Positions 26,519-61,572 of a stretch of DNA of 64,000 bases are shown here, one piece after another. Origin of the DNA: Lineus longissimus (Eukaryota; Nemertea; Pilidiophora; Heteronemertea; Lineidae). The first letter of the stretch is position 1, and every line of letters begins with the position of its first letter. Both the position numbers and the translations under genes were made by a program. Under the pieces are notes generated by a model. That model was not told where the DNA came from, did not search any database, and saw only the letters and a program-made list of their open reading frames with translations. The stretch is from contig NC_088316.1 of NCBI RefSeq assembly GCF_910592395.1, forward strand, positions 13,888,001-13,952,000, given 5' to 3'.

Positions 26519-26721
26519 ATGGCGATTCATCCATTCATCAGTAGGATGTAGAATCATCTTTCTTTCTCGACCGGCAAACTCTCTGAATTCTAAGAACGAT
26601 GTCGTCCTTGAGGCGATTCATCCATGGCGATTCATCCATTCATCAGTAGGATGTAGAATCATCTTTCTTTCTCGACCGGCAAACTCTCTGAATTCTAAGA
26701 ACGATGTCGTCCTTGAGGACA
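26519..26721. repeat. Perfect two-copy direct repeat, 105-bp period
   Basis: The block beginning ATGGCGATTCATCCATTCAT at 26519 recurs at 26624 and runs identically to GTCGTCCTTGAGG. The linker CGATTCATCC between the copies repeats the block's own start. Confidence 0.9.
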
Positions 26722-35161: not shown

Positions 35162-35232
35162 CTTTTGGTCTTTTGCCGACTGCAGAAAATACCAATTTTT
35201 CTCCTGTCCCATGTGGTTCTTGGGACCCCGAA

Positions 35233-41848: not shown

Positions 41849-41854
41849 TTTATT
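41849..41854 (-). promoter_or_regulatory. Candidate polyadenylation signal of the SLC6 gene
   Basis: AATAAA on the minus strand about 620 bp past the stop at 42473. The position is plausible; use is unproven. Confidence 0.3.
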
Positions 41855-42472: not shown

Positions 42473-42982
42473 CTATAAGTGAGTCTGAAGGTCTAGCTCA
42501 GCATGACCTATTGACGATCTGGATCCTTGGGAATGTAAAGAATGGTCGCCAACTGAGCGATGGCGTACCCGAGACCTTGGCTGAATCTCATCAACCATCC
42601 GCTCCTCACGCATTATTTCATCATCAGCATCAATTACAAAGTCATCCGTCACATTTAATGCCGCTTCAGAGTTTGTAGGAATATCTACAGTCATATTATC
42701 AGAACCTGCTGAACTAAGTCCTCCATGTCCGTCTGAATTTTCTAAATGATCAATATTTACATCCAAATTCAACTTTTCCGAATCGTCAATTCCAGTGTCC
42801 ACATATTCCGTCGAAACAGAAGGTTCTAGATAACCTGGCCCCGAATCTTGATCTACAAGAACAACGGCCGAGCCGGCTTTTTCATCCAGAATAGCCCTCA
42901 TGTTTACACAGCTTAGTCTCTTTGAGCTTGTTTCACTTGCTGTGCTAGAGATTGCACTCAAGTCATCTACGTCGCATGCGAC
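42473..42982 (-). CDS. SLC6 exon 28: acidic C-terminal tail, stop
   Basis: 510 nt in phase 0 after acceptor GTTGCAG. A Ser/Asp/Glu-rich disordered tail with no known domain; ends LQTHL then stop at 42473-42475. Such tails usually serve trafficking or scaffold binding. Confidence 0.82.
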   Translation of the reverse strand, partial: VACDVDDLSAISSTASETSSKRLSCVNMRAILDEKAGSAVVLVDQDSGPGYLEPSVSTEYVDTGIDDSEKLNLDVNIDHLENSDGHGGLSSAGSDNMTVDIPTNSEAALNVTDDFVIDADDEIMREERMVDEIQPRSRVRHRSVGDHSLHSQGSRSSIGHAELDLQTHL

Positions 42983-45900
42983 CTGCAACGAGAGGGAAAC
43001 AGGTCAGTGAAGTGTAACCAATACCAGGGTATACTGGCAACAATCATTAGCCAAGAATCACTAGACAAAAAGTGGCAACCGCGAAGTATATTCTGTAAAA
43101 CCCATGGGCCAGCCAAACTTTTGAATTACACTGATAAGATTTTTGAACGGCGGTCATTAGAAGGCATAACAAAAGTCAAAGACGACATGGTGAAATACCT
43201 CCCTTTCACATGACGTCTCTCTGAGCCAATGATACTCATGGAATCACACCTGAGGTACGCAATTAAAGTGTATCCATCCTTTTCCATTCTTACCTCTAGA
43301 TCTGTTTCCTGTACAGGTGACAGCATGTCTGTCTGTGTCGATTTCTCCTGGCAGGTCCTGGGACTTACAGGGCGTCTCTGAATGATCACATCATCTACGA
43401 CACTGTGCAAATGTTGGAGCAGGCCTGCAGCAGAGTAAGCATGTTTTAAATGAAGTTATAAGAATTCAAATCACTCTGTTCAGAAATGGTTACAATGGCA
43501 TTATAGTAGCCCCTCCCCCCAGCCCTAGCTTTAAGAGCAGTGTTTTACCACCACTATTTTAGTATGTACTTACCTGCATGTATGCCCAGCCTAAGCTCCC
43601 CAAGCCTCTTGGGCTCATATCCAACAGCTCTCTGCAAGGCTTCCGCACCAAGCAGTTGCTCTAACGATCTAATACTATCAGCAGGTGGGAGAATACGGCA
43701 GGAACTTTGAGGCGTGGAGAAGATGTCCTCTGAAAAAGACATTTTTAGTTTATAAATTTCCACTGAAACTAAAACGTTATGATAAAAATAAGTCAAACCA
43801 AACTATGTTCTCGAGCAAGACACTTAGACATTCAGAGTGACATTCACAATAGCATCTCTTAGGGAGAATGATTTTAGTCCTAAATTGGTATCCGCATGCG
43901 ATTTGACCTCTGTAATCAGGATATTTTCTTTAGTGACATCACTTTTCAGTGCCAAGGGTTTGGTCTCTTCAGTTCCTACCTTGCCCTGAAGATCGCGATG
44001 GCGTAGTTCTTTCATGAAGTCCACGAGACTCTGACATGAAGTCCACGAGACTCATGAAAGAACTACGCCATCGCCATCTTCAGGGCAAGGTAGAAACTGA
44101 AAAGACCGTTTGGTCTCTTCAGTTCCTACCTTACCCTGAAGATGGCAATGGCGTAGTTCTTTCATGAAGTCCACGAGACTCCGATAACCTGCTCAACGAG
44201 GGGGATTTGGGCCACGTGGATCTCCGTGGATCTCCGTGGTTCGGCGCTGAAGGTGTTAAAAAGAGGTCCCACCGTATTGTCATTTATCATTTACCTGAGG
44301 CAAGAGTGGTGTCACTGGGTCTGCGCTTCAAAGTGGGTGTGAAGAACTGAGCAAAATATCGATGTTTCTCAAGTGCTGGACCCCAATGTGGATCAGGTCG
44401 AATACACTTATGCAGACGCTGAAAACAAGAAATAATTGGGCTCGAATTCCAACCAGACTAAAGGTGACTAATTTCTAACTTAAAATGAGAGTATGGGGCC
44501 ACGAAGTCCAATCCTTATGATCTCAAAGTCTTGGGGATTTTACTGTTGTTAGGCATTTAAGCAAAGAGACCTACCTTGGGTCTCATGCCAACACTGGGGA
44601 TAAACTAGGGACCTTATGACACCACCGAGCTTTGTGAGTTGGCTATGGACGTAGGAGAACTACGATTTGAAACTTTGGCGCAGTCTTTATACCAAAGACA
44701 CCTGACATACCCGCTTCAGAGATCCTCCAACCACGCACAGTTTGTAAATCAAAAAGACTGGTGTTGGCAGTAAGGCTAGACCGACCATGATCCAGGCAAC
44801 GAGGTACCCCCACCACGGAAACTTATACAGGCCATACATCACAGGCGTGTACTCAACAAAGGCAAACACAAGAACAGCCTGAAATAGAAACAAATTTTGT
44901 CTTTTCTCTATTGATTATTCAATCACAAGCTCAATTGGTAATCCCAATATTTTAGTAGATATGGTATGTAGACTAAACATCAATTCTTATTGATATTACA
45001 TGAGATTTCTTGGTTATACATGTATAATGAACTCTGTTCTTGACAGAGTAACTTCTTCAACACTTACTGTCACTATCAAGGGGGTCAGGACCAACCATGT
45101 CGCCTTCCAGTAATAACTCAGGTCTTTACCAATCATACTCTTTATATCCTTTTCCAATCTGTTGATGCCATAGAACCAAGAAAACGCCCCTGTCTCTAAG
45201 AGGGCCAGGAATAAAACTGGCCATGAGATGATGTAGTTGTCAAACAAGTGTATCAGGTAGATTCCACCCTGAAGTTGAAATATATAAACGTCATTTCGAC
45301 CCTGATGTAGTTGTCACAAAACAGGTTACGAAGACTGGATTCCAACTTCGGCCCTCAAACAGCTTTTTGACAATAAAAATAGGGAACCCCCAAAATAAAG
45401 AGATGCCAAATTTGGCAATTCATAAAAAATATATACCTCTGTAACCAATGGCAGTCCAAGGAAATACATCCCGATGCAGATTATCATGGAGACATAGATT
45501 CGCTTCTTGACGAATTGCGGGAACTCCTCGACAATGGCTACTGTTAGTGTTTCCACGGTGACGAACTGCGTGTCTAACCCGAGCATGAAGAGCATGAAGA
45601 AGAAGAGGAAGGACCACAATGGTGGCGCAGGGAGTTTGGTGACAGCTTCCGGGTAAACGATGAAAGCAAGACCAACATCTGAAAAGAAATATATTGCGTT
45701 TGTTAGAAATAAGCATCGGTGGGTTGGGTCGCTGAATATTCCTTAAGGATTTGGAACTAGGGATAAAAATATGCAAGTTGAGGGAGCCTCGGGAGCCAAA
45801 TTACCATATCTGTCAATCACGCACCTCTTGTCCCCTTAAGTACTTCTAATCGGACTAAGACTTACTGATATGAAGATGCTTCAAACCCACCTGATGAGAT

Positions 45901-48900
45901 GACATTGTCAACCGATGTTCCCATTTCTTTCGCCATGACGCCCATGGTAGCAAATATCACAAAACTGGCAAACACACTCGTGGCAAAGTCACCAAGTGAT
46001 ATCAGAATCGCATCCCTGAAATTGAATTATTTGGTGAGTTTATCTCAAAAGAGGCCTCTGCAAACATTTCATCGATCAAAATGAGTATACTCAGTCTAAA
46101 CTGAAGAGTAATACATGTATTTCTACTTTCACCAAAGTAATTGGAACTTAATAGCTATAGATAGTTACGCGTGTACACTTGCAAGTCATGTCATGTCATC
46201 ACCATGTCCACTTCCGTCCATTAGAGAAAAGCGCAGTTTGTTTTAAGCACAATGCATTAAAATGTGTGACAATAAAAGTTAAAGGTTATCAGATGCTTAG
46301 AATTCCAGGTGCCAAATAAATTTGACAAATTTAATGATTCAACTTACCTGTGACAGTTATTATGAAATCTATTATAACTCGACAACATGATTAACCCTCC
46401 ATAGCACGTCGACAGTGAGAAAAGAACCTGTACCGCTGCGTCGTACCACACCTGGGCAGACAGCAACAGTGACCATTGTGGTGTTACATAGAACTGGATG
46501 CCCTCCTTGTGGCCATCCAGGGTCAAGGCCCGGATGAGGAAGATGAGGAGGATGAGATAGGGGACTGTCGCCATCAGATACGCCGCCTGAAATCAGAATT
46601 GAAATCATCTGTAAAGATTTAACAGATTATCGTCATGTGAATGCTAACGCTAACTTGACAATGTCTCTGCCCTCAACCAGCAGCCCGACACAAGCAATCA
46701 GAGCCTATCAGTTTATCGGTTGAACACGAAAAAACAAAATAATAATTTCAATGAAATCTCTTATTTCACAACAATATCAATGTTGCATGATCAATGTTGG
46801 ATTCACTTGGTGTATTCTTGCCTCCTCACAACTTGTTGAATATCTTCGAATAAAACCTGAAGACATTTGGTCAGCAGCAGCTATATGAGTTAAACATCAC
46901 TATATTAACGAGAGAAATATCAACGGGGGACCGTTGTTTCAGGTCACCCAACCAACACCAAGTGGACCTGCTGATGGTGTGTGCACAGCATGTTTACAAA
47001 TTGTTGTGAAGCCATCATGTCATTGAACAAGAAATACATCTATGGTGCACTTGAAACTACAAAACTGACCACTACAACTAGGTGACGGGTGCAGTCCATT
47101 TTTATAACAGCCCATTTAATTAGGAATTTTTGTAACTTCCGTTAGACAATGGATCCCCCAGAGCCATATCAAGCATACCTCAAATCTTCCAGTATGAAGA
47201 ACAAGAAATGTTGTGAATGGCATTTGAAAAATATCAGATTTGCACACGATCCAGATAAGCAGTGAACAATTAGTGATACTTTTTATACATGTTATGTTCA
47301 AAGCACTTTGCCATGTCACTATGGCAACACCTGATACATTCTCCCAAAGCTTTTCGCAATTCAAAATTTGATGACCAAAATAAGGATAAAACTGTGGTAA
47401 CAATACCTACATCCCACAATAATGAATATGCAGATTAACCCTCCAGATCCTTGCATAAAGTACATAAAACCACAAATTTTCAATGACTGCTGCTGCCATC
47501 TGTAAGCTTTTGGTGGAACTAATGCCTGGCTTTATGCATTGCAGAAGTAATTGAAGAAAGCATTGTTTTAAATTGTTTGCAAATCAATTTTGATGACTTC
47601 TTCAAGATAAATATGGCAAATACTCGAGCAGATGTTTTGTTCACACAAGATCTAAAGGGTTAATTGTCAAATCGATACATACTATTGCATTCATAGGAAC
47701 TATGTGCAAGAACTGAAAAATTATTAATAAGGTCAGAATCATTGGGGATCGGTGCATAAAACTCGAGATTGAAGCACGCCCCCTCTTTTCTGGCTACTGG
47801 ATCCGCCCCTGCTGTTTTTGCAAAGGAACCATCGAGGAACGCGGAATTCAGAAGTACAAGATGCTCAAAACTTGGACATTAATCAAAATACTTGGTGTTC
47901 AGGATTAAATTCTCTCATATGAAATAGGATTACAAACCTTTCCGGCTGACTTGATCCCCCTGATTATGCACAAGAACACAATAACCCAGGCCAGTAGTAA
48001 ACACAGAGCTAGATGCCATCGAACATTGCCCATCGAGTGGAGGCCTTCGGAGATATCCAGCACATGGCGTCTGCAAGTATATGAAGGAAAACTAAAGAAA
48101 CTGTCAGATTTTTGCGTGTGCATGCTTGAGGTTTTTCATACAAAATCCAAAACTATTAATTAATCCTGAATGAATTAAATCATACTTACAAGAAATATTC
48201 TTCACTGGGACTTCTTGACTTGTTCACGGCCAGGGATGGGATAGGTTTGCTACCAGGGTAGCCTGTTCCGTATAATGATAACAAATTGAGGGTTAAAGAT
48301 TGATTTGTGCTGCTGAGTCCCACCTTCAGAGTGTCATTCAGAGCCGTTGCATTCAGCGTGAGATTTGAGTACTTATTCAACGAACAACCTGAAGAGGAAA
48401 AAATTACTAGTAAAATTGATTACGTACGGTAATTTGATAAAATATTAAATCTCTCACTGCTAATGGTGTCATATGGTTAGGTTACTACACCAGTGGTTGT
48501 GGGTTCGAATCCCTTCCCCAGTCATTTTCAACCTTGAAATAGGACTAGGAGTCTATGCTTATGTGATGTGCTTTGAGCTATCCCCAACATCCCCAGGAAG
48601 AAACAAGGAACTTTTTGCTTGGATTCCTTGGAAAAGCTCTGCATGAAGAGTCAAACTTCTCCACTTTTATTTGTCACAATTCAATTCCTAATCTTTAATT
48701 TCAAGTGAGAGGGCCTTTTTATCATCAGTTACTGTTATCCTGCTCCAGCCAACTCCACAAGCAAGTCAATCAAACACAAGTCAGTTCGAAGCAGATGCGA
48801 CACTGGCCTACTTACTTGGACTATTCCATTCATTATCGCAGGTCGACCATCCAAGTTTGGCTGTGAATGACGCAAACATGTAGTAGAGAGACCATGCTGT

Positions 48901-49822
48901 TACAACGTTGTAGTAGATCCCGAGGTAAAACGACACAATGACGAAACCATAGCCAATCCCTGAAAAATATGTGTTTTGACACTAAAAAAACTGACACAGG
49001 AAATTAACAAACAAACTGATAATCCTACGTATCATTTTTCTGCGTTCTGACATTTTTTGACCATTTAAATCTCAGGCCATGCCTTGTAGCAAAATTCGAT
49101 ATGGTGTAGGTGACCTGGTACTGCTCCAAATGCAAGCACCTTTGCTTCATCTTCTTAGGGAAGTTCGTTCTGGCCAAAAGGTCAGTCCAAGCATCATCAA
49201 TGGACAGACTAGCATAATCTGTCCCTTATCTATGAGTTGTCAAAACCTATAATCATGACAATGCTATCATACTGCCCAAAGTCAAAGTAGAACAGGGGTA
49301 GACATCACAACCATCTTGATCAAGTAGAAGTTGAACATACCTTTGAACCAGGGCACACATCTCCAGACCAACGTCGGCCCAACACTTGCATACTGCCCCA
49401 TTGCCAACTCCAGGTAGTACAGAGGTATACCCATCACAACCATCATGATCAAGTAGGGAATGAAAAACGCACCTGAAATCATCAAAGCATAATATTAAAT
49501 TCAAGAATTTGAGAATTTGAGATGGTGGAAAATTCGAACATTTACACAATTCAAAGTCTGTGGCATATGGCACATATGGATGTCTGACATTAATATCAAC
49601 ATAAAAAGCTTCATTCGACAACGTAAATTGCATTTGCTCATACGTACCACCGCCATTTCTGTAGCAAAGATATGGGAAGCGCCACACGTTCCCAAGTCCC
49701 ACTGAATATCCCAGGCAGGTTAGGATGAACTCATACTGGTTCGCCCAGTTTCCCCGCGATTTGTTCTCCTCCTCCTCCCAGTCAACACTCCCAGTATCCA
49801 CGTCATCTTCTTCAGGCTTTAG
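42473..49822 (-). CDS. SLC6 half 2 (downstream transporter domain, 14 exons)
   Basis: 892 residues plus stop. The first exon opens at a phase-0 acceptor (TTGTTTCAG) with acidic [19 protein letters not shown] and no Met before TM1, so translation must begin in an upstream exon. All 12 helices are present: TM6 [11 protein letters not shown]7 with an Asp at the Na1-site position, TM8 GLDTQF, TM10 HLFD. Extracellular loop 2 has five glycosylation sequons. After TM12 comes a C-tail of roughly 320 residues in four exons, Ser/Asp-rich, ending THL, a class I PDZ-ligand pattern. The exon lengths 175, 132, 144, 133, 125, 201 and 168 equal those of half 1. Confidence 0.88.
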
Positions 49823-52800
49823 CTGAAACAATGAACTTCAACATGACAAAACATTCCAATAAAATCTTCATTTGATCACCACAATATATCGTATACAACT
49901 TCCCCCAAAGGGTAAATTCATACTTCTGTCGCAAACTGCAGGCAATGGAACTGCCTTAAATCAGGCAACAGGAAGCATCATTGAAGATTATGTGAGAAAA
50001 AAATACGAGTTGTGTCATGGAGACGTGAATCGAATTTGCCATGAAGATACACTTACCATACTTGCGACACTTCCATTAGTCGTGACACCCATATCTAACG
50101 TCTCTTTACTTGAGCAGGGATCTGGTGTGACCTGTGGCTCGTCACCGCCACTGATATATTCAGGGATGGTGTAGAGAAGTAACGCACGGTGGATATCCAA
50201 GGCGGGTCCCCAGTCAGACATTGGCCTCATCACAGTCTTAATCCTCTGCAAAATGATCAGAACTATCTAAGTTTTGGTTAATTTACAAGACCAGAGAAGG
50301 TGACGAGTGGAGAACGGAACTGGAGTTCGTTACTGAGACTGGGTTCTCCCCAGAAACTACTTGAATCAGGAACTGACTCAGAATTGAAACAGATCATCAT
50401 TTTCCAAGTGACATGTTTCATCCCAAAGAGCCACATACGAATTTGCATCCCCATCATCTGAGGAGGTTGAAAGCTCACTTTACCCCCTCCACATTAAAGA
50501 AAAGGCTGGCCTTTTTCATTCCCACCAATATATTATAAGATGCTCTTCCCCTTACCTCTTTCACAGTTCCGGGAGTCCGCGCTACTATATAGACCATGTA
50601 GATGGGGACACTGATGAGGCAAGCTGGGGTGATCAGATATGTGAGGATGTAGGCCCACTCTGGGTAGGTGTAATGATGAAATTGCACTGGACTGTTGGTG
50701 ATCCAACTGAACAGTAGGAATGCCTGTAAGAAAGAAACATAGTTAGCCTTTTTAACATTTTCAAAAAGTTTCAATTTCCCAACTTGCCGAGAATTAAACA
50801 GGTCTTCCAACTTGCCGAGCTGGCCAGCACTGATAAAGATATGGAATTGACGTGGCCAGAGCAGACGTGTTACATGCTTGACTATGTGACTGTTTGTGGA
50901 GATGATGTTCTTCGCATGATATTTTAAACCATGATGAAGTGTTGGAACTGCCGTCAAGGTGTAGCGCCTGACGTTGTGGTTTCAAACACAGAAGAAGAGG
51001 AGACTTACAAAGATGAGTCCAGGCGTCACAAACTTCCACATCATGTTCCACCAAAATGTCGGACGGAATGCAATCATAATCTCGATGTCGCTGGCCATCT
51101 TGTCGAACCCATAGACCCACGCCAGAGCGATACACTCGATGATCCCGATGATGAGGATGGCCCAGCCGATGGCAGCCTGGTCTATCAGGTGGAGCAGGTA
51201 GATACCTCCCTGTTCACAAAAGAAGATAATGAAGTAGTTATATATATATAATTATTAGCAACTTCTTTTCTTCTTCAGTGTTCACTCTGCACTTGGAGGT
51301 GTCTTTCTCCAGAAAGTTATCCTCGTCCATGGTGGGATGAGTGATTTACATTTGGAGCCAATTGGCTTTATTTGCCTAGAGACTCGGCCAGAGGCCAAAG
51401 GGCAGAGTCAATCACAAGCTACTCATTTTTCTTACTTGGTGGGGTATTTTGCTTCCCCTCACATAGAAACAAACTCAGCTCATTCGATGGACTGTGAAGA
51501 GTCAAGAATTTTAGTAAGGATGATCATACTCAAAATTTTAGTGAGGATGATCATGATCAAAACTCTTTCAAAAAGATTACTCTCTACGAATGTTCAATAA
51601 AAGAAGCAAATCATCCAAGTTTGACAAATCTTTATAAAACTTTACCCTTGTAGTCATTGGTAGGCCAAGCAGGAACATCATCGCACACACGCCCAGACAC
51701 AGCCAAGTGCGGTGCCGGCGCAGAACATGGGGGTACTCGTCAACCAACGCCGTGATGATTGTTTCGACGAATGTAAACATGCTATCGATGCCGAGAAGAA
51801 CGAGCATGAGGAAGAAGAGGATGGACCAAAATGGCGGAACAGGAAGATGGAGAACTGCCTCGGGGTAGACGACAAATGCTAGACCGATACCTGTAAAGGA
51901 GGTAGGAATTTCATTTGGAATTTGAATACTGAGGCCAGTGCCGAGTATCAAAATGGAGATCCCAATAAGCTCCTAAATAAACCTCTCATTTATACTGTGA
52001 GTCACCCCTCTCAGCCAAACAAGGAATCAAAACATACTTATCAAATAAGTTTGCAACTATAAATGCCACCACACTCATATCCTTATACACCTTAGTTCTT
52101 ACTTCCACTCATCTCATTAGAATTAGATTAAATTGAAAAGAAATTTGATTGAATTACACTCAATTTATTCCAATATGTAAACTGCTCACTACCAGCTACT
52201 TAATGTAGTCAAGCACAGCATATGGCATAGTGACAGAGGGTATCCTATTCTATCACAGTCTAAAAGGTAACATAACTTGCTTCTTTTACATCAGATAACA
52301 CTCAGAGGAGGGGCAGGCTCTTTAACACAAAGGCAACAACCTATCAAGAAATTAGTCGAACCGAGCGACCATGTTATCCCACAAGAGAACTGAAGCTTTA
52401 AATTACCACAACCATGGTTAGCATTTGGAAATGGTCAGCACAGCACAGCTCATCATGTACTATGATGAGAAATGTTAGACTCTTCACTGCAGGAGGATGA
52501 GCAGCATTTACAGAGCTCCTGTATAAAGAACAGACAAACCGGTGAACAATTTAATTCCTGGAAGACTTGGCAGCTACTATTTTTAGTAACTATTTTTGAT
52601 ACATTTTATACTTTCATTTCCACTCGGTGCTTTTCTCCTTCTTCCGTGAGGCCAGCAATGTATTAATCATTTTCACGAACCTTTGTCAACAACCTTATCG
52701 ACAGTTGTGTTGTTGTTGAAGGCCATTACTCCCAAGATTGAAAAGATGACAAAGCCGGCAAAAATACTCGTGAAAATATCGATAGTAGCTACCACGAATG

Positions 52801-55800
52801 TGTCTCTGAAACAGACAGTTAGCTCTGGTTAGAGGTAAGACATTAGAGAGGTTACACACAGTCCTGACTCCTACTCCCACTACGCGTTGAACTGGAAGTC
52901 ATTTTGAACTCATGGCATCTAAAAGATAGTGGTGATTATCTAGCATTCAGCAATGGGACCAGTGGGGTGTCATTGAATACTTAAGGCTGGCAAAAGATCT
53001 CTACACCACTTCCTCCTGCCTCACACAAAATCTATGCCAGTATCTCTACTTTTGGTACTTCAAGGCTGTCGAGGTGTGTTCATGGCTGAGTTCATCAGGA
53101 TAGGATGGGAAACCCAACCCTCAACTGATGGTGTAATAAGAGTCAAGGGAATCAAGCAGCTCAGATTGGGAGTAGGAACAGGGGCGGTGCACAATCTCTC
53201 TATTAGACACACAAACCACGCTGAAGACAAGAGGCTCTATGTTATAAAGAACGACAGAGAGAAAACATAACAAGAAGATACGAGGTAGACGACAGTTTAA
53301 TCGGTCCTGAGCCACACGCACGTTGGGCGACCAAATCAGAAGCGACTCAAGTTCAATTTCTTGTTGCTTCTGGTTCATCATCCGCGTACGACAGACAGGA
53401 AGTTATCAAAATACTGTTAACCACCTAATCTTCTCACCTCTTTAGATTCTGCGAATTTGCGAGAATATTCAAAACACAACATTTTCACAATTTTTATCCT
53501 TGGTGGATTTTGAAATTATGTTTGACTTTTCTAATCAAAAGTATTTTCGCAATTTCTTATTATTTCGCATCGCATTGAAGTTATTTGCGAAACCAATGAA
53601 AAAAAACTTTGTGAGTATTCGGCGGTTTACAGTAGCAAGAGTTAATGGATGCACAGCAACGCATAGATCTGGAGAGTTCTCCACCTATTAGCCGCATAAT
53701 GCACTAGGTTAATCGATTTTAACGATACCTTGGTCAACCACATCACCGACATCTTTGCCATATGCTTGCGCCATAGCGCCAAGCATCGCAAATATGACAA
53801 ATCCAGATAAAAAACTGGTTAAAGAATCAGTGGTGGCTGCTATTATCATGTCCCTGAAATACGAACGTCAGGATGAGAAAACCAAAACTATGTCAAAATA
53901 GTAACCAAGTTAAACAAACCAGCACTCGTAACTTTTAAGAAAGTGAGCTTTTCACTCAATATCATAGCCTCATAGTGGCTAGCTATCTTAAAATAACATC
54001 CCTGTGTGCTCTCAGCAGCAAACCACTAATCAGGGACCAAAGTCAGAAAGCTTTTATTGCAAGGCATGCCTGAACACAGACCCCACACAGCCTTCCAATT
54101 GTTGCTAACAGCCTACGAGCATCCAATCAACCTCACCTCCTACAATCATTATGGAATTTACTGTAACTTGAGAGAGTGATAAGACCTCCAACTGACGGGC
54201 CAAGCGACCACACAACCTGGACGGCTGCATCTATCCAAACCTGAAAATAATATTTCTGTCAGATTTACAGGATGACAAAAAAAGATATTTGAAATAGAAC
54301 TAGACTTGGTTCTGGTTGGATTTGAAGCGTTGTACTGTGATAGTAACGTTCCCAACCCAGCTGCCTACCTCATAAGTCTATTTTACGAGCTACTCATGTT
54401 TCTAACATAGATTGGGTCTTTTGCTTGCCAAGGTGTAGGCACTTGGAAAAATGTATAAACAATATGTCAACATGTCAAGTGTACCCTGAATGTAAGGTTA
54501 TGAGTCCTCAGTATCAACCACTAGGGTTTATTAAAGGGTCTATAACTTTTTACCTTCCCATCACGGAGTTTTGAGAAGTCTGGTATCACGTAATATTTGA
54601 TACCATCGAGCGCTCCGTCGAGGAGGCACGCACCGATTAGAAGCACCAGGAGTAATACATATGGGAAGAGAGCAGTGAAATAAACAATCTGGAAAGACAA
54701 TGAACAGAATTTTGGTGAAAAACACTTTATATTGCTGACTGACAAAGTGTACAATAGCGATTCTCAATGATGTTCACCCCCAACCTCTCAGTAGGGCTAC
54801 ATGGTGCGCCGAGGAAATCAAGACATGCCCTTGCCCCCACCCACAGTTTTTGAAGAATATAGAAGTTTTACCTGCATAACATATAATTCTTCACAACAAA
54901 ACAATGCACATTAGACAGACAGACAAGAAATAAAGCACTAATCAAAATTGCAACACAAAAAGCAAAAAAATCCTATCACCTTCCAAAATTGGCACATGTA
55001 CAAATTTTCTGAGGCCAAAAGCCATAATGAATATGGAGGAATAAAAACAACGTCCCAACACCATTCACATTAGAGACAGACTTACTTCACGACAACTGAA
55101 CCACATCTGAAATTTCAACTCAACATGTAAGACAACAAAAAATGAAACTATCGGGGTCAAAGCAAACTTGTGTAAGTGACAAAACAGTGTGGAAGGAGTG
55201 AACACAGCAGGAATCTTCAATCGGAAAATGGCCATTTTAAGTATTTCCAACTTAACAGACAAGAATAGTAGGTGTGTATAAGCCAAAATAATTATATAGT
55301 GTATTGATAGAGTTTGATAGGTACTAAAGCAGTCACCAGAGACGATTTTGCAAGCAGTGAAACCAAAGTACATCTAGGCAATAGGTTGATGTGAACTAGC
55401 CTCTGTTAGTGTGGAAGTCTCATTGTGTCAAAGAGCATGTACAGTAGAACCTTTCTATTACAGACACGCTAAAGAACAACAAATCTTTAATAGAAAGGTG
55501 CCCTCACTATAGAGGTACAATTCTATGAAAATGCCAAATTCTGGACCAAAAGCGACCTTTGATACAGAAGGTGTTTGCCTAACAGATGTGTCCCCTAAGA
55601 AAAGTTCCACTGTACATGCATTTCTCACAATACTAATTCAAAAGAAAAACTATACACAGTGTCCAGATTTGTCACTAAAAACAAAGCCTGAATATGAAAT
55701 ATTCTCACCTTTCCCGAATATTTGATTCCTTTGACAAGGCAGAGGAAGAGAAGAGTCCAAGCCAGGAGAAGGCAGCACGCAATCTGCCACCGCACCGTGC

Positions 55801-58800
55801 CGAGGTTGTGGATGCCGTCAGAGACGTCTAACATGTAGCGTCTGGAATAAAGTGATAAAACATGGATCAGTGTTACTCTCAATCAGTGTTCTCAGTGGCA
55901 AACAAGTGCAACACTGATGTCATTCAGGGTCTTAACCAGTCATACATTCCTGTGCATCACATAGGTCTTCCCAAAATAATAACTACACAATACTTTTTGG
56001 ACACTGAAAGCATACTTTCGGCTTTTTTCGTGGGGTTACAAGAGAAACTGGATTGGCAACACGGATTATGTCAAAAACCTATGAGGAGATCTTGACTCTA
56101 AACAGTGCAGCTGTACTGATTAACTCAGACCGTTACTGATCTGCTGGGTTGAAATCACTCAAATCCTCAGAAAACATACTCAAAGAATTAGAAACTTACT
56201 GGAAATATTCCTCGGTGGGAGTTTTGTATCCGAGTGTTGAGTTGACTACCATGAATGCTGTAACATTGGCGGTGGGAGCGGTCGTGTTGACACAAGTCAA
56301 GTTAACAAGTGTCTCATTAAATAATGAACAGTTGAATGTTTGCATCTGGTTTTCACGGCAGGCTGGAAGGAACAGTATCGCAAAAAGATGTTATTGTCAA
56401 ATAAAGAAGGAGCCTCTTTACTCCGTAAAGTACACGAGAGCTGGACTGGTGATAAATCCTCCCATTCGACCTTTTATATAAGAATTATTGCAACTAATAA
56501 CCTCACAAAATCTGCAACTAAACTAGATATCATTGACAGCTTCAATAGACCTCAGTTTCTTTTTACAACCAATAACACATTAACAATCTCCTTAGAAACA
56601 ATAGGATTGACAAGCCAATATTTATAGCATGATTTACTCCCTAAATCCAGTATTTTTTCTTTATGGTAATCAAAACATGCACTCTTAATAGAAATAAATC
56701 ACCTCAAGCCCTGCAGTGAGGTTATGTTTGTCAAAAATTGCCATTTTTAAGAGTGCACTGCTATTTTGTGCTTCAACCTACCAGGAGTATTCCAAGTATT
56801 ATTGCAGTCTTTCCAAGGGAGTTCACTTTGCATGGAGGCGAACAGATAAAACAATGACCAGGCTATCAAGACATTGTAGTAGACTGAGATCACAAACACA
56901 CACAACACCATCGCATATCCAATTCCTACATGCACTCTTAATAGAAATAAATCACCTCAAGCCCTGCAGTGAGGTTATGTTTGTCAAAAATTGCCATTTT
57001 TAAGAGTGCACTGCTATTTTGTGCTTCAACCTACCAGGAGTATTCCAAGTATTATTGCAGTCTTTCCAAGGGAGTTCACTTTGCATGGAGGCGAACAGAT
57101 AAAACAATGACCAGGCTATCAAGACATTGTAGTAGACTGAGATCACAAACACACACAACACCATCGCATATCCAATTCCTGCAATGAAAAGAACAAGATA
57201 AAACTTTCTGGTTAATATTTCCTAGAAAGTCATTGAGCCTCTCTGATCTATGCAGCGTTTGTCACTGGGTGTTCCGCAGAGATTTGACGGTCCTCTGCAA
57301 ACAAGCGATATCAATCGCATGTATCAGTGACATGTCCATGACGACATACTCTCACAGTGAACATGCCCTCATAAGTGCCACGCAAATCAGCAATCGTATT
57401 TGCTGCGAGCTGCAACAGAGCAATGTATGCACAGCGCTTCAGTGAGCAAGCAAGGTGGTAATGAATGAAAATCATCAAGTCAAATCTACATTATATAATT
57501 TTTCTTGTACTATATCATACTTGCCTTTGAAAAGTGGTACAGCTTTCCAAATCGTTATAGGACCCAGGCTGGCATACTGGCCAAAGGCCATTTCCAAGAA
57601 GAAGAGGGGTATGCCTACAAACACCAACATGATAACATAGGGGAAGAGGAAGGCACCTGAAAGGAGACACTTGTTTTGAAATAATGTAAACCCGCAAAAT
57701 ATTCACAGGCATTTTATTTTTCGCAAACCGACCCCAGAGAAATGAGGTACTCCATTTGTGTCACTTGTGCAAGTTCAGTTGACACTTGGACAAGACTTAC
57801 TGAACTCATTGGACTTCAGGAATAACCCAAGTGAAAAAGTAGGACATTTTTAACCACCTACCCCCTCCATTTGAGTAGCAGAGGTAGGGGAACCTCCAAA
57901 CATTCCCCAACCCCACTGAGTATCCAATACAGGAGAGGATGAAGTCTAGTCGACGGGCCCAGGTCCCCCTCGGACCCTCTTGTATCTTTGGCCATGTCTC
58001 GCTCAGCTGGCTATCACCAAGACCAGTCTCTCTACTCTGAAATAAGAAAACAAGAGAAAAATGTTGACTTTAGAATTACCTGCCAAAACATCAATTTTCT
58101 AGTAGCTGGCCTCGATAAACCCTGAGAACGAGAAAAATTAAATCAATGTAAGCAGAAGTTGATATAACGTGTGGGGTGTCTGTTATCAAAAGGATCAAAA
58201 TAGAATTTTTCAACTCAATATCTAGGTGACAAATGAAAATAGTTCCAACTTGGCCACAGAAGGTAATAGGTTTTCATTACAAACTTAAGCGTTTGTTTCT
58301 GAAACAACGCCTTTTTCAATTGAAATTTGCATCATCAAAATCAATTCAGCGGAAAAATTTATACTGGATGTCTATCATTTTAAATACAAGCACTAGCAGA
58401 TTTTCTGCAGAAGTGTCATAAACGTATACATTCAAAATTCTAGATCATTTCGATGAAATGAAATAGGCTAGTGTTTTGATAGGGAATTACCGCAGACAAG
58501 ACGTCAGCTGTTCCTACCAAAACAAGACTCATAAATTTTCCAATAAGATGCTGGTAACCATGGAAACCAGAAGTAAAACATCGTCAGCTCATGTCCCCAT
58601 GCACCACGAAATCCTAGTGGGATGCTTCCTTATTTGTATGCTGAGTCAGCAAGTTTTCAATTTCGGAGACTTGCGTATGATGACAAGCAAATACGCCGAT
58701 ACAAATGGTTCTTCCGTGCTTTCTTTAGTTATTTTACAGACTACATCAGCTCAGCCAACATGTCAGTTAAATATTTGCCTCTGCAACACAGAAACTGGCA

Positions 58801-61572
58801 ATAGAAAGGCAGGAAAATGAAAACTTGTGATTCTAATAACAGCTAGCACAGTATCGAGACCGCACTACAAAAACCTTAGCATGGTTACAGAGATAGTAGA
58901 GGACTAAAACCAACTGTACAATACACTATACGGTCAATTGTTGGAGTCAGTGATGATTAATAGGCAAAAAAAATTTTAAAAGCTTCACGCAACCCTGGTC
59001 AGACGGAGATACAGCGGGTATTTTTATCAGACTGCAGCCAAAATCAATAAAGGCTACTGAGTCACAAGACATCGTGATTACTTCGCTCCATCATGACAAA
59101 CGACGGTTTAGGATGGGTCATGGAAACAGAGACTCAAAGATTAATTTCGTATTATTCACGTTGGAGCCTACTCATACATTTTCACCACCCGCGAAAATGT
59201 TCGCTCTTATTTCCTGTTCAAAATGTGAAGGAAAGGGTTCCATTGAGGGTTCCCAAGATGATCTTCCACCGGAATTTCTCCACATCTAATTTGTTCATTA
59301 GCAACTGTAAAACACCATCATCAACAACTTTCTCTCTTCCCTGTTATCGCTGCACCCATCCATTACCTGTACTGTGCTGGCGACAAATCAAACCAGGAAA
59401 TTTGACCAACAATAAAAATTGTGTAACTGATCCACTTAGGGATTTGTTATACTGAGACAAAGCAATTATGACATGTATGATGACTTTACCAAGAATAGCT
59501 TGTCATATGGGCACAAACGTGTGTTCATGAACAGTTCAAGCCCAATACATGATTAACATAAACTGTACTAATGTCACCAACATGAAATTGCAGTTGCCTT
59601 GGTGACTGTCAATTTCCACTTCGTCAAGGGACTTAATTGTACCAATTATCTCTGATGCAGATGATTGACAGGCGGACATGAGATAATAAAGTATCATCAA
59701 TTCATGACATTGATAATTTGGCTCATAATCAATTACTGTCTTTTTCTTTATGAATGGTGTAGGGACCTCTCCAGCTTCTGTATAGGTCATGGGTTTGAAT
59801 CCTTTAGTGTTGCTGTGTTTAGAAACTGCCTTTCTTTTAGTAAGGGGGTCATCCATACAAGTCAAAATACTCTTTCACTAAGGGGTGGTGGTCTGTCAAC
59901 ATCTGTACTGTTTTGAAAACATTGATAATCACGGATGACACCTAAGGCTATCCATAAGAATTCATGTATTTTTGTTTGCTGCTGCAAGCCAACACACTCG
60001 AGTGTCGCTGATCTAAGACCGTTTTATGATATTCAAGTAAGCAGCGCTATGTACACATGGTTGTTTGATGCTAACTATTTAGATTTACTCTGGAGAAATT
60101 ATTCATCAACGTTAAAAGATTTCTGTGACTTACATTTTCCATGCTGCCGACAATAACATCCATATGATCCAGAAATAGCCTCTTCAGCTCAGCAGAGAGT
60201 ACGGGATACGAGATCACAAACTACAGTGTCAATGACGAAACCTAGCAACCCACTTCCCGTTTTCATTATGCAACCTCCTCTTCAGATGCTAACTTGGCTC
60301 AAATATCAAAACAGTCTATAAACAGGTGAGAGCCCTGCCAATACGGGTCAATAATCATTGACGTGACAAAGAATCATCACAAATACACATTTGTTAATAT
60401 CCAAGAACACAGAGTGAGATTATCCAACCAAACTGCTCGTGCTATCCATAATTGACTGTTAATTGAATTTTAATTACCAGTAGTTGAGTTGTCCGACCGT
60501 ACATCCAGGTACTGTAGTCTGTATGGGCTGTACAGTAAGAGTCTGTACGGAATCACAAAAAACTCAAACATCACCACGAAAAATCGTCATCATTCAAAAA
60601 ATAATCCAATCTACAGATACTTGATACGATCATTCAGCTCGATGTATTATTTTTCTTAGTAGAATCGAAGCGAAGACTTCAGTAAACCCACAGGAGACAA
60701 AAACCAATGTACGAGTCCCTAATATTCATGAATATGTTCATCAAGACCTTAAAAGATCACGAACTACCAATTATTAAAGCCCCATTATTATAATGTATGA
60801 AAACAATACGTCAGAACACCCGTAAGGCGTATTGTAAAAATCAACGTCCAAACGATTTGATTAGATAATTGGTTTTACCACAATATCCGTATATCGATTC
60901 CAGCGCGACCACTCATGCTTCATTGCTGACTGATTCAGAAGCTGGATCAGCCAATGGGCAACTGGTGCTGCCTCCTGTTGGTTGATGAATGAACAGCACT
61001 TAGTACCAGTAGTGTCAGGATATTGGGTAGTTTTATCATGAAAATGTTGGAGGAACCGCCTCGGTAAGAGAGTTGACCACCTATTATATGAGGAAGCGGT
61101 CACACTAGAAATCAAAGCCACTACCTCAACCAAAATCATAGAACTAGGCTGTACCAGAGGCAGTAATACGAGAAATGTCCCTCCTGGATACGTTTTAACT
61201 AATGTATCTAACATACCTTCTTCCCTCGTTTCTTGTGATCTGTTGAAATCGCTTTGCTGGGCGATTCTGCTGACTCGTCATTTTCAAACCCCTGAAAAGA
61301 TTACAAAATGAAACGTGGCTACTGTCAAAAGTAAGTAGACTGAGGACCCTCACTGCGTGCAAAAATCTGTGAGCAAGGCACAAATCCCCTTTTGCTTCTC
61401 TTGATCAAGAGTACAAAATGCAATAGTCACGACTTCTCAAGCACCTTAGTTGCAGTATCAATTGGTATCAATTCAAGCTTGTCATACAAACCTCATTCGT
61501 CTCTCCTAGATTTTCCAGCTCAATCTCAGGAAGAATGTCAACCTGGCTGATACTCCTATTAGGCAAAGGCAT
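42473..61572 (-). CDS. Fused double SLC6 transporter (two complete 12-TM domains)
   Basis: Twenty-eight exons join without a phase break from ATG at 61572 to the stop at 42473: 4749 nt, 1582 residues plus stop. Residues 1-690 form one SLC6 transporter and 691-1582 a second. Each has the TM1 signature [11 protein letters not shown] and the TM3 YYN; the TM8-TM9 region is GIDSMF in half 1 and GLDTQF in half 2. Each also has TM10 GGIYL and a post-TM12 DPHWGPA or SDWGPA motif. SLC6 proteins use Na+ (usually with Cl-) to import amino acids, transmitters or osmolytes at the plasma membrane. A Gly replaces the monoamine-transporter Asp in TM1 (YSVGLGNVW), so an amino-acid-type substrate is likely. 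Both SLC6 termini are cytoplasmic, so the fusion is topologically possible with a cytosolic linker of about 90 residues. The alternative is two genes, with a hidden first exon for half 2, or trans-splicing; see the junction entry. Confidence 0.72.
43294..43424 (-). CDS. SLC6 exon 27: C-tail
   Basis: 131 nt, acceptor CTGCAG, donor GTAAGA. Encodes a polar segment with [13 protein letters not shown] and KSTQTDM. Phase agrees with both neighbours. Confidence 0.78.
43574..43729 (-). CDS. SLC6 exon 26: C-tail
   Basis: 156 nt, acceptor TTTTTCAG, donor GTAAGT. A helical-looking segment ([19 protein letters not shown]). No domain recognised. Confidence 0.8.
43810..43960 (+). mobile_element. Fragment of the TACAGTGGAACC-type MITE
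   Basis: TTTTAGTCCTAAATTGG and ATTTGACCTCTGTAATCAGG match the interior of copy 1 (TTTTGGTCCCAAATTGG and ATTTGACCTCTCTAATCAGG). Terminal repeats are lost. It sits in an SLC6 intron. Confidence 0.6.
43961..44181. repeat. Triplicated hairpin repeat: direct, inverted, direct
   Basis: A block of about 70 bp (GGTCTCTTCAGTTCCTACCT through AAGTCCACGAGACTC) occurs at 43961-44031, inverted at 44033-44107 and direct again at 44108-44181, with only a few differences. Adjacent opposite copies give a near-perfect hairpin. Confidence 0.9.
44295..44418 (-). CDS. SLC6 exon 25: start of C-tail with WGPA motif
   Basis: 124 nt, acceptor TTTTCAG. Begins [19 protein letters not shown], the usual SLC6 sequence after TM12, then a basic stretch. 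Confidence 0.88.
44711..44878 (-). CDS. SLC6 exon 24: TM11-TM12 of half 2
   Basis: 168 nt in phase 0. Contains [20 protein letters not shown] and the TM12 stretch [12 protein letters not shown]. Same length as the matching exon of half 1. Confidence 0.93.
45068..45268 (-). CDS. SLC6 exon 23: TM10 of half 2
   Basis: 201 nt. [20 protein letters not shown], then [13 protein letters not shown], standard for SLC6 TM10 and following loop; the Asp matches the outer-gate acid. Donor GTAAGT. Confidence 0.93.
45437..45678 (-). CDS. SLC6 exon 22: TM8-TM9 of half 2
   Basis: 242 nt. [19 protein letters not shown] leads into TM8 with [12 protein letters not shown], the region supplying Na2-site residues, then TM9. 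Confidence 0.93.
45891..46015 (-). CDS. SLC6 exon 21: TM7 of half 2
   Basis: 125 nt. [20 protein letters not shown]. The Asp takes the place of the Na1-site Asn; the Ser four residues on matches the chloride-site Ser. Only one copy of this exon was found in half 2. Confidence 0.92.
46348..46586 (-). CDS. SLC6 exon 20: TM5-TM6 of half 2
   Basis: 239 nt, exactly the sum of the separate TM5 (135) and TM6 (104) exons of half 1, so one intron was gained or lost. Contains [18 protein letters not shown] and [19 protein letters not shown]. Confidence 0.93.
46587..47937 (-). other. SLC6 intron, 1.35 kb
   Basis: No gene, exon or repeat recognised. It separates the TM4 and TM5-TM6 exons of half 2. Confidence 0.6.
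47938..48070 (-). CDS. SLC6 exon 19: TM4 of half 2
   Basis: 133 nt. [20 protein letters not shown] and the TM4 stretch [13 protein letters not shown], ending GIKSAGK at a GTTTGT donor. Same length as in half 1. Confidence 0.92.
48190..48388 (-). CDS. SLC6 exon 18: extracellular loop 2 of half 2
   Basis: 199 nt. Five N-glycosylation sequons (NLT, NAT, NDT, NQS, NKS), ending SPSEEYF, the family's pre-TM4 motif. 36 nt longer than the half 1 equivalent. Confidence 0.9.
48465..48535 (+). repeat. tRNA-like sequence or SINE head in an SLC6 intron
   Basis: Box A-like TGGTGTCATATGGTTAGG and box B-like GGTTCGAATCC lie about 30 bp apart, the RNA polymerase III internal-promoter layout. Stems pair poorly, so a tRNA pseudogene or SINE remnant fits better than a working tRNA. 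A weaker similar sequence is near 59750-59810. Confidence 0.35.
48816..48959 (-). CDS. SLC6 exon 17: TM3 of half 2
   Basis: 144 nt. [20 protein letters not shown] with the conserved Tyr-Tyr-Asn, then the loop with the Cys that starts the loop 2 disulfide (WSTCDNEW). Donor GTAAGT. Confidence 0.93.
49341..49472 (-). CDS. SLC6 exon 16: TM2 of half 2
   Basis: 132 nt. [20 protein letters not shown], then [10 protein letters not shown] and PWFKG; donor GTATGT. Same length and phase as half 1. Confidence 0.94.
49648..49822 (-). CDS. SLC6 exon 15: linker and TM1 of half 2
   Basis: 175 nt. Opens in phase 0 after TTGTTTCAG, has no ATG upstream of TM1, and contains [20 protein letters not shown]. Length and end phase match exon 3 of half 1. 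Confidence 0.93.
49823..50056 (-). other. 234-bp intron joining the two transporter halves
   Basis: Donor ATG|GTAAGT and acceptor TTGTTTCAG, both phase 0. No minus-strand AATAAA or ATTAAA was seen inside, and the space is very small for a 3' UTR, promoter and first exon. A retained intron would stop translation after 13 codons. Confidence 0.75.
50057..50245 (-). CDS. SLC6 exon 14: C-tail of half 1, part of the linker
   Basis: 189 nt, 63 codons, acceptor TTGCAG, donor GTAAGT. Begins [19 protein letters not shown], the family post-TM12 sequence, and has no in-frame stop. Confidence 0.88.
50057..61572 (-). CDS. SLC6 half 1 (upstream transporter domain, exons 1-14)
   Basis: 690 residues. Cytoplasmic N-terminus of about 80 residues, acidic then Lys-rich (DHKKRGKK); TM1 with Arg100 of the outer gate; a large extracellular loop 2 with six N-glycosylation sequons; TM6 reads VVWSLGPS, where the outer-gate Phe of most family members is Trp. 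TM7 comes from either of two exons. TM10 keeps the gate Asp (HLID). The start ATG has A at -3 and an in-frame TAG upstream. The last exon carries the SDWGPA C-tail motif and no stop before its GTAAGT donor; intron retention would end the protein after 13 more codons. If made alone it would be an ordinary-length SLC6 protein. Confidence 0.88.
50556..50723 (-). CDS. SLC6 exon 13: TM11-TM12 of half 1
   Basis: 168 nt in phase 0. [20 protein letters not shown] and TM12 [18 protein letters not shown], ending VKE at GTAAGG. Confidence 0.92.
51009..51209 (-). CDS. SLC6 exon 12: TM10 of half 1
   Basis: 201 nt. [20 protein letters not shown] then [14 protein letters not shown]; the gate Asp is kept. 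More GC-rich than its surroundings. Confidence 0.92.
51646..51890 (-). CDS. SLC6 exon 11: TM8-TM9 of half 1
   Basis: 245 nt. [20 protein letters not shown], then [20 protein letters not shown] and TM9 FLLGLP. Acceptor TTTACAG, donor GTAAAG. Confidence 0.93.
52681..52805 (-). CDS. SLC6 exon 10b: alternative TM7 exon of half 1
   Basis: 125 nt, acceptor TGTTTCAG, donor GTTCGT (weaker than 10a's GTATCG is also weak). [20 protein letters not shown], then NNNTTV with a glycosylation-like sequon. It has the same phases as 10a, so the two substitute for each other; both together shift the frame. Asp at the Na1 position and Ser at the chloride position are kept. Confidence 0.87.
53729..53853 (-). CDS. 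SLC6 exon 10a: TM7 exon of half 1
   Basis: 125 nt, acceptor TATTTCAG, donor [26 protein letters not shown], then [12 protein letters not shown]. Asp390 sits at the Na1 position and Ser394 at the chloride position. It is upstream of 10b in gene order. Confidence 0.9.
54137..54240 (-). CDS. SLC6 exon 9: TM6 of half 1
   Basis: 104 nt. [20 protein letters not shown], then SSYSKFHND. Trp stands where most members have the gate Phe before Ser-Leu-Gly. Confidence 0.92.
54554..54688 (-). CDS. SLC6 exon 8: TM5 of half 1
   Basis: 135 nt in phase 0. [20 protein letters not shown], then [12 protein letters not shown], the usual loop after TM5. Confidence 0.92.
55440..55614. mobile_element. TACAGTGGAACC-type MITE, copy 3, in an SLC6 intron
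   Basis: TACAGTAGAACCTTTCTATT at the left and AGTTCCACTGTA at the right, flanked by TA; the interior is more diverged than in copies 1 and 4. Confidence 0.65.
55709..55841 (-). CDS. SLC6 exon 7: TM4 of half 1
   Basis: 133 nt. [20 protein letters not shown] and [16 protein letters not shown]; acceptor TTCCAG, donor GTGAGA. Confidence 0.92.
56200..56362 (-). CDS. SLC6 exon 6: extracellular loop 2 of half 1
   Basis: 163 nt. Six N-glycosylation sequons and conserved cysteines (ACREN, FNCS, LTCV), ending TPTEEYF. Donor GTAAGT. Confidence 0.9.
56782..56925 (-). CDS. SLC6 exon 5 duplicate: second TM3 exon copy
   Basis: 144 nt, identical to exon 5, with a usable GTAGGT donor and an AG acceptor but a poor pyrimidine tract. 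Because 144 is a multiple of three, including both copies would keep frame but insert a second TM3 and upset topology. It is probably skipped, or an assembly duplicate. Confidence 0.6.
57035..57178 (-). CDS. SLC6 exon 5: TM3 of half 1
   Basis: 144 nt. [20 protein letters not shown], then LFYLFASM and KDCNNTW. Acceptor TTGCAG, donor GTAGGT. The Tyr-Tyr-Asn substrate-site motif is kept. Confidence 0.92.
57525..57656 (-). CDS. SLC6 exon 4: TM2 of half 1
   Basis: 132 nt. [20 protein letters not shown], then [13 protein letters not shown]. The donor reads AAAG|GCAAGT, a GC-AG intron, where half 2 has GTATGT at the same place. Confidence 0.92.
57862..58036 (-). CDS. SLC6 exon 3: TM1 of half 1
   Basis: 175 nt, acceptor TTATTTCAG. 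A polar N-terminal segment, then [20 protein letters not shown] and [13 protein letters not shown]. This is the diagnostic SLC6 signature, with Asn and Arg of the ion site and outer gate. Confidence 0.94.
58037..61216 (-). other. Large 5' intron of the SLC6 gene, 3.2 kb
   Basis: No exon required by phase and no gene recognised. An intron of this size near the 5' end is where an internal promoter or alternative first exon (for instance for half 2) could hide, but none can be pointed to. The tRNA-like words near 59750-59810 lie here. Confidence 0.5.
61217..61291 (-). CDS. SLC6 exon 2: N-terminal cytoplasmic segment
   Basis: 75 nt, 25 codons in phase 0, acceptor TTTTCAG, donor GTATGT. Encodes [20 protein letters not shown] then KRGKK. 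No domain; the basic end is common before SLC6 TM1. Confidence 0.78.
61492..61572 (-). CDS. SLC6 exon 1: start codon
   Basis: ATG at 61572-61570 with AAA before it (A at -3), and an in-frame TAG 14 codons upstream. Encodes [20 protein letters not shown] and seven more residues, ending in phase 0 at a GTTTGT donor. Confidence 0.8.

Follow-up and report, generated by a model that had tools for sequence, protein, structure and literature searches.

Analysis of the window, a stretch of 64,000 nucleotides of Lineus longissimus DNA, revealed a gene for a double SLC6 protein on the minus strand (61572..42473). Rebuilt exon by exon, the gene comprises 28 exons that form a single open frame of 1582 residues. 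The frame starts with the ATG at 61572, upstream of which an in-frame stop is found with ten codons in between, and ends with the stop codon at 42475-42473; a poly(A) signal word follows at 41854. All 27 introns have usable splice sites, 26 of the GT-AG type and one of the GC-AG type, which is located after exon 4 (AG/GCAAGT). A Pfam search of the deduced protein detected the SNF domain (PF00209) in two stretches with a total of 1285 bits (cut-off, 27). The exon-wise rebuild and the two SNF matches confirm a sequence-only reading of this DNA, which had proposed 28 exons in continuous phase and a 1582-residue frame with two complete SLC6 domains. These results indicate that the gene model is sound.

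The two halves were defined as H1 (aa 1-690) and H2 (aa 691-1582), and transmembrane segment (TM) names were assigned to the exons by homology. All features of the gene given below lie on the minus strand. Exon 1 (61492..61572) carries the start codon and the N-terminal tail, which continues in exon 2 (61217..61291). The membrane part of H1 is encoded by exon 3 (57862..58036, TM1), exon 4 (57525..57656, TM2, with the GC donor), exon 5 (57035..57178, TM3), exon 6 (56200..56362, EL2), exon 7 (55709..55841, TM4), exon 8 (54554..54688, TM5), exon 9 (54137..54240, TM6), exon 10a (53729..53853, TM7), exon 11 (51646..51890, TM8-9), exon 12 (51009..51209, TM10-11), and exon 13 (50556..50723, TM11-12). 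Exon 14 (50057..50245) encodes the H1 tail and the first part of the linker, including the PEYI codons (50153..50164, aa 655-658) of a junction motif that was recognized by linker comparison. A phase-0 intron of 234 bp (49823..50056) separates exon 14 from exon 15 (49648..49822), which carries linker and H2 TM1.

H2 continues with exon 16 (49341..49472, TM2), exon 17 (48816..48959, TM3), exon 18 (48190..48388, EL2), exon 19 (47938..48070, TM4), exon 20 (46348..46586, TM5-6), which corresponds to H1 exons 8 and 9 together, exon 21 (45891..46015, TM7), exon 22 (45437..45678, TM8-9), exon 23 (45068..45268, TM10-11), exon 24 (44711..44878, TM11-12), and exon 25 (44295..44418, H2 tail). The C-terminal tail is completed by exon 26 (43574..43729), exon 27 (43294..43424), and exon 28 (42473..42982), the last of which includes the stop. 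The tail includes a putative LC8/DYNLL site, EKSTQTD (aa 1396-1402), whose codons lie at 43327..43347.

Two features that the sequence-only reading had not reported were observed within the H1 part of the gene. An alternative TM7 exon, exon 10b (52805-52681), has the same length (125 bp) and phases as exon 10a (53853-53729), and the two encode proteins that are about half identical. Exons 10a and 10b look mutually exclusive because the presence of both or neither in the mRNA would shift the frame. An exact 253-bp tandem duplication at 56675-57180 holds exon 5 twice and represents either a recent event or an assembly artefact. With both exon 5 copies in the mRNA, the frame stays open (1630 aa), but no pyrimidine tract precedes the AG of the second copy.

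Comparison of the two halves revealed 45% identity across 607 aligned positions. Ten of the 11 introns within aa 110-627 of H1 are matched in H2 by both alignment column and phase. The homologous exons 3 and 15 each measure 175 bp, are entered at phase 0, and are left at phase 1, and the introns that precede them each lie 22 residues ahead of the RG.WA motif. Exons 1 and 2 have no counterpart in H2; instead, the H1 tail exon is spliced to H2 where upstream exons of H2 itself would have joined. The shared introns, the likeness of exons 3 and 15, and the missing counterparts of exons 1 and 2 suggest that a tandem duplication came first and that the gap was later bridged by splicing at a phase-0 intron. 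Most likely, a GlyT-like gene was duplicated in tandem, and the last exon of the upstream copy would then have been spliced, at the phase-0 intron, to the first membrane exon of the downstream copy.

A hydropathy scan showed a run of membrane segments in both halves, with TM1 below the threshold in each, as expected for this helix because it is unwound. The proposed figure of 24 membrane helices is based on homology to 12-helix structures, and the scan by itself missed TM1 of both halves. SLC6 domains have their N and C termini in the cytosol, which would place the linker and the long tail inside the cell. The nearest solved structures were the same for both halves, with GlyT2 first, GlyT1 next, and PROT close behind. 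These top matches (SLC6A9 [GlyT1], SLC6A5 [GlyT2], and SLC6A7 [PROT]) are single 12-helix chains, unlike the Lineus protein.

The junction was analyzed with respect to the possibility that two genes had been joined in error. The 234-bp intron (50056-49823) contains neither AATAAA nor ATTAAA, and the nearest such words on the same strand are at 51372 and 48699. Reading from H1 into the intron adds 13 residues before a stop at 50017-50015. No direct repeats of 16 bp or more were found in 49500-50800, and an assembly artefact at the joint of H1 and H2 was rejected, since no such repeats were found there. An assembly deletion, which would have taken out a stop and a promoter lying between neighboring genes, is regarded as very improbable: the exact tandem copies at 56675-57180 (253 bp) and 35232-35961 (364 bp) hint at local assembly trouble, but no repeat was found at the junction, the flanking splice sites are intact, and the linker is conserved. 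Another explanation assumes two ordinary neighboring SLC6 genes, where H1 ends in the junction intron or in an unseen last exon, an unseen first exon within H1 serves as the start of H2, and the frame is continuous by chance. The phase-0 introns on either side would ease such accidental in-phase joining, but the gap between the halves is only 234 bp and has no poly(A) signal word.

To this question, the relatives of the protein contributed further evidence. The best 120 of 154 (whole-length search), 7669, and 5226 matches were considered, and all counts refer to the 280 matches listed plus the Lineus protein; the whole-length search was limited to proteins of 0.55 to 1.75 times the query length. 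The whole-length search revealed a protein of 1623 aa from Owenia fusiformis (P0001) with 41% identity over 96% of the query, together with numerous other doubles. In the Owenia protein, domain 1 (D1) is 50% identical to the H1 core, and domain 2 (D2) is 45% identical to the H2 core. The search with H2 gave doubles of Dimorphilus, Macrostomum, and Mercenaria and an unnamed double (P0125). Thus, when two-SNF-domain proteins were looked for in other invertebrates, as the sequence-only reading had suggested, they were found in Owenia, Dimorphilus, Macrostomum, and molluscs, the last with many such proteins. A profile scan detected more than one SNF match in 54 of the 281 proteins. Twenty of the 54 were assigned to the lineage of the Lineus protein (Owenia, Dimorphilus, Macrostomum, molluscs, and Lineus itself), some of them as partial models or with a partial domain, and 34 were others. 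No protein with approximately 100% identity to H1 or H2 was present among the matches listed. Of nine database proteins named Lineus longissimus, P0135, P0139, and P0212 agree at 98 to 100%, over stretches of at least 40 aa, with 30 short loci that represent part of the SLC6 genes of the 391-Mb Lineus genome; the best values for the other six are 67 to 85%, and none of the remaining proteins among the 280 listed agrees at the higher level.

Owenia P0001 and the Dimorphilus gyrociliatus protein DgyrCDS5133 (P0131, 1236 aa) resemble the Lineus protein in having two SNF matches in the same order, the linker motif P[DE]Y[IV], the motif DT.S[VI]DW, and TQT in the tail. For Dimorphilus, the D1 model is incomplete, with several ion-site residues missing. 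The mollusc doubles (Octopus LOC115211848, Haliotis, Littorina, Ostrea, Mytilus, Mercenaria, Sinanodonta, and unnamed contigs) share the domain order, the motif and length of the linker, and, in most tails, TQT; over long matches, their D1 is 28 to 31% identical to the H1 or H2 core.

Two further doubles have both domains in one frame on short contigs: P0006 (2029 aa; longest contig, 7752 nt), which was placed with Octopus in the tree, and P0125 (1555 aa; 6099-nt contig), which was placed with Mercenaria. Because an intron-rich gene of this size would not fit on these contigs, the latter are most simply taken as spliced sequence, as judged from their lengths, the alternative being an intronless gene copy. 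The Owenia annotation was built with RNA-seq, and according to the available part of PMC9977687, 99.29% of its transcripts are supported, a figure for the whole set and not for P0001 singly.

The stretch between the domains contains a conserved motif. [PE][DE]Y[IV] was found between the domains or before D2 in 18 of 22 lineage proteins (the 20 doubles plus P0033 and P0035). Three of the four misses are cephalopods with S[DE]YVI, and the fourth (P0021) is a model without that stretch. Among the matches listed, none of 225 single-domain proteins, scanned around the end of the domain, carries the motif, and it occurs in only 1 of the 34 other doubles (P0004), within a membrane segment. In all seven linkers tested, out of 15, P[DE]Y[IV] follows 14 to 16 residues after the WGP-equivalent; the Macrostomum linker, which lacks the Trp, was anchored on SGAT instead. 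Shuffled linkers contained P[DE]Y[IV] with p values of 0.001 to 0.005 each, but these figures are descriptive because the motif was picked by viewing these same linkers. The linker is 74 to 100 aa long in all 15 cases measured among the 20 lineage doubles. The Lineus protein has two SNF domains, P[DE]Y[IV] 14 to 16 residues after the WGP-equivalent, and a linker of 74 to 100 aa, the features by which the lineage is defined here. The motif DT.S[VI]DW was detected only in Lineus, Owenia, and Dimorphilus among the 281 proteins.

Not every long double was accepted as a relative. Brachionus, Maniola, Solemya, and Antedon doubles were rejected because their D1 and D2 are within-species sisters, and among the 34 other doubles, the linker pattern matched in P0004 alone and there in a membrane segment. 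A pair of separate models was found in Lingula anatina, namely, P0153 (665 aa, D1-like) and P0026 (1092 aa, D2-like), with contigs both of 591450 bp. This pair perhaps represents the unfused ancestral state, or a split model. The explanation by two neighboring genes is favored by the within-species sisters, by two frog doubles that look merged, and by the two separate Lingula models. It is opposed by the motif ahead of the joint, which is conserved across phyla in the joined relatives and absent from the 225 single-domain proteins, and by the joined frames on short contigs, and we consider it distinctly unlikely. Comparison with annelid, flatworm, and mollusc proteins, in which the same order and linker motif recur, mostly with the same tail motif, and with two doubles on short, apparently spliced contigs lends good support to the fused protein that had been proposed earlier; taken as a whole, the earlier interpretation is partly supported.

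Three trees were built for phylogenetic analysis: a quick one with 88 domains, a careful one with 64 of these 88 rows, and a smaller one with 32 of the 88; long-branch, gappy, and near-duplicate rows and some references were dropped from the latter two. In the quick tree, the D2s of Owenia, Dimorphilus, Macrostomum, the molluscs, and Lineus grouped with Lingula P0026 (n = 22; SH-aLRT, 89), and 11 mollusc D1s grouped at 100. The D2 group excluded H1 as well as the Owenia, Macrostomum, and Dimorphilus D1s, but the forks there were open. The 64-row tree split 28 lineage rows, including the two Lingula proteins, from 36 others at 99/97. One GlyT1 row and one GlyT2 row are among these 36, so the Lineus halves are not placed with vertebrate GlyT. 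H1 paired with Owenia D1 at 87/88 in the 64-row tree and at 98/90 in the 32-row tree, where Lingula P0153 was placed as D1-like at 62/80.

Free trees leaned toward H1 with the D1s and H2 with the D2s, with open forks, and AU tests left alternatives unrejected: H1 and H2 as sisters gave p values of 0.17 and 0.227, and Owenia D1 and D2 as sisters gave p values of 0.098 and 0.112. A D1 clade of molluscs, Owenia, and Lineus was absent from the 64-row tree and was not rejected (AU p, 0.30). The two frog doubles (ATB0+ type, which look like merged neighbors) also showed D1 with D1 and D2 with D2, so this pattern alone does not demonstrate a fused protein. The trees show a distinct lineage and lean to an ancient pair, and they prove neither pair nor fusion. 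For this reason, the weight for fusion lies on the linker and the short contigs.

An independent fusion in the lineage leading to Lineus would also yield a double chain and differs from the best explanation only in its history, the likeness to other doubles being convergence from the same tandem pair. The unrejected sister relationship of H1 and H2, the apparently unfused Lingula pair, and the restriction of DT.S[VI]DW to three species are consistent with it; the order of the domains, the position of the linker motif, and the linker length, which are alike across phyla, argue against it, and we regard it as unlikely. A comparably low probability is assigned to a gene with two promoters, whose main product would be H2 alone with the tail of H1 at its N terminus and whose full double would be minor; this reading, too, overlaps the best explanation. 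It is suggested by an oyster-like protein, P0035 (987 aa; cluster of 128 sequences; 3437-nt contig), which was placed with Ostrea in the tree. P0035 begins with MTENFIDFLSR, from a first exon of its own, followed by residues that match Lineus exon 14, including PDYV, and then by D2, so that a D2-only product with the tail of D1 probably exists in this animal. Intron 13 of the Lineus gene may hold a comparable start. Against two promoters, short and apparently spliced contigs also carry full doubles, no separate first exon for H2 was identified in Lineus, and H1, in contrast to mollusc D1, retains transport residues, suggesting that H1 is under selection.

Site residues were mapped on the alignment and are given here under their LeuT names (e.g., Ala22, Asn27, Arg30, Gln250, 254, and 286). 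H1 and H2 carry SLC6 hallmarks, namely, a 14-letter TM1 signature, the gate Arg/Asp pair, and Na2 L..DS/T. H1, H1 with exon 10b, and H2 all keep a stretch of 11 residues, the Gln and Ser of TM6, the Na2 pair, and the gate Asp. The gate Phe position is occupied by Trp in H1. At the TM6 site, where most relatives as well as the GlyT1 and GlyT2 rows have Trp, H1 has Val and H2 has Tyr. At the Na1/chloride site, H1, H1 with exon 10b, and H2 have Asp, unlike the GlyT rows, which have Asn. Neither of the two GlyT substrate-site residues (TM6 Trp and TM7 Asn) is thus found in the Lineus halves. Among the background singles, Asn occupies the Na1/chloride position in 165 of 184 rows and Asp in 18 of 184. 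Ser is present at the Ala22 position in both H1 and H2, and the combination of Ser22 and Asp286 occurs in 4 of the 184 background rows. Judged by these residues, both Lineus halves look transport competent. From the main sodium-site and gate residues that are kept, each half would be a Na+-coupled carrier of small amino acids.

The available text of PMC8310414 describes that the residue at the Na1/chloride position of KAAT1 (D338) affects cation and chloride dependence, that KAAT1 has Ser at the Ala22 position, and that chloride-independent B0AT1/B0AT2 orthologues mostly have Asp at the Na1/chloride position. Because of the Asp in the Na1/chloride site of both halves, weak chloride dependence is predicted for the Lineus protein, as in KAAT1 and B0AT. 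In the lineage, Asp is found at this site in 21 of 22 D2 rows (17/17 mollusc and 4/5 other), all but that of Lingula, which likens the group to weakly chloride-dependent carriers; D1 of Owenia, unlike H1, keeps Asn there.

In the molluscs, the two domains differ. None of the 10 readable D1 rows retains the gate Arg. Asn27 is conserved in 1 of 10 D1 rows and Gln250 in 2 of 11, although Ser/Thr254 is present in all 11. Mollusc D2 resembles Lineus H2 in the gate pair, Asn27, Gln250, and Asp at position 286, with Arg30, Asn27, Gln250, and the gate Asp each kept in 17 of 17 rows. It differs from H1 and H2 at two sites (17/17 rows each), where Val or Ile takes the Ala22 position and Ser or Gly replaces the Asp of the Na2 site. 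This distribution suggests that mollusc D1 is a tethered pseudo-transporter. The predicted structure of a truncated Mytilus double (P0025; mean pLDDT, 60.9; pTM, 0.45) contains broken TM1 and TM6 helices in both domains, and the mutual placement of the domains is not readable at this low confidence. Foldseek analysis of the model gave human PROT, GlyT1, and GlyT2 as the best matches over approximately 530 columns, the length of one domain.

The C-terminal tail of the Lineus protein carries EKSTQTD. The motif [TI]QT was found in 17 of 21 lineage tails, Lingula P0026 and D2-only models included, versus 4 of 247 others; 4 of the 21 lineage tails lack TQT. Thirty-six of the 247 other proteins have tails of more than 150 aa, and 2 of these 36 contain [TI]QT. 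The counts exclude P0022, P0025, and P0089, whose tails are cut, and proteins in which the last domain match does not reach profile position 560. Shuffled tails of six lineage members, including Lineus, contained the TQT motif in 6 to 23% of trials, so that TQT means little in a single tail and its recurrence carries the weight. The LC8 motif, [D/S]Kx[T/V/I]Q[T/V][D/E], is one of disordered segments, and EKSTQTD fits its sequence at all positions except the first. In the available part of PMC3078936, from which this motif was taken, DKSTQTD is given as the natural LC8 consensus peptide (Kd, 5.6 uM), and LC8 is thought to serve as a dimerization engine. An LC8 dimer bound at the putative tail site would pair two chains.

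The evidence makes it probable that one gene encodes a natural single-chain double SLC6 protein (12 + 12 helices) in a spiralian lineage with annelids, flatworms, and molluscs. We infer expression of the full chain in Lineus, transport, chloride dependence, and LC8 binding. The tether would fix a 1:1 heterodimer, and the halves would share local sodium. In Lineus, uptake by both halves with mutual influence is to be expected; in the molluscs, the first half would be silent. The heterodimer with two substrate sites that the sequence-only reading had envisaged is plausible for Lineus, judged by the residues of its halves, and does not fit the mollusc relatives, in which D1 has lost several ion-site and gate residues. 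More tentatively, and with slightly less than even probability, the covalent SLC6 heterodimer may have arisen once in early Spiralia and been kept since, with both halves transporting in worms such as Lineus, the first half acting in molluscs as a tethered pseudo-transporter that regulates or positions the second, and LC8 pairing the chains into higher assemblies. If true, SLC6 quaternary structure would be genetically fixed and readable in evolution.

The SLC6 family is described in the available part of PMC8247324 as single 12-helix chains, and the Lineus protein departs from this with two domains in one frame. A known counterpart is the hSERT-rGAT1 concatemer (Seidel 2005, cited in the same text), in which two different SLC6 units also form one chain, although it is a laboratory construct and not a gene. 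In that concatemer, the carriers are functionally coupled by proximity, and local sodium was suggested as the trigger (PMC8247324, available part). The same text reports that only one protomer at a time is active in DAT dimers joined by cross-links, the other being idle, and that cooperativity in SLC6 oligomers has been studied with mutants that were tagged or locked, by cross-linking, and with an artificial concatemer. A gene-fixed 1:1 SLC6 pair would offer a natural test system for cooperativity, in which one half is silenced and the other is kept. The mollusc D1 has lost several site residues, while bivalves, gastropods, and cephalopods have retained the joined design; this persistence despite the lost residues points to a non-transport role for an SLC6 fold.

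Searches of open-licence PMC papers, a scope that leaves out most subscription journals, gave no account of a natural double SLC6 protein. The available portions of PMC8699752 (invertebrate glycine transporters) and PMC8382897 (SLC6 up-regulation in bivalves) do not mention a double SLC6 protein. The statement that no animal transporter of this form had been described holds for these searches, although databases already list such proteins as unnamed or uncharacterized models. Species other than Lineus share the double design, which is a variant within the SLC6 family.

Elsewhere in the window, exact or near-exact tandem arrays were found at 35232-35961 (two copies of 364 bp), 26518-26718 (1.9 copies of 105 bp), and 4718-6009 (12.4 copies of a 104-bp unit). 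The minus strand contains an open frame of 354 aa at 8727-9788 with a match to rhodopsin-family GPCRs (PF00001; E value, 5.6e-12) and, at 15641-16189, a frame that matches part of the ligand-binding domain of neurotransmitter-gated channels (PF02931; E value, 2.1e-8). Across the Lineus genome (391 Mb), at least 126 SNF exon matches were located on many contigs, in several clusters, which indicates that this genome has numerous SLC6 genes, often in clusters.
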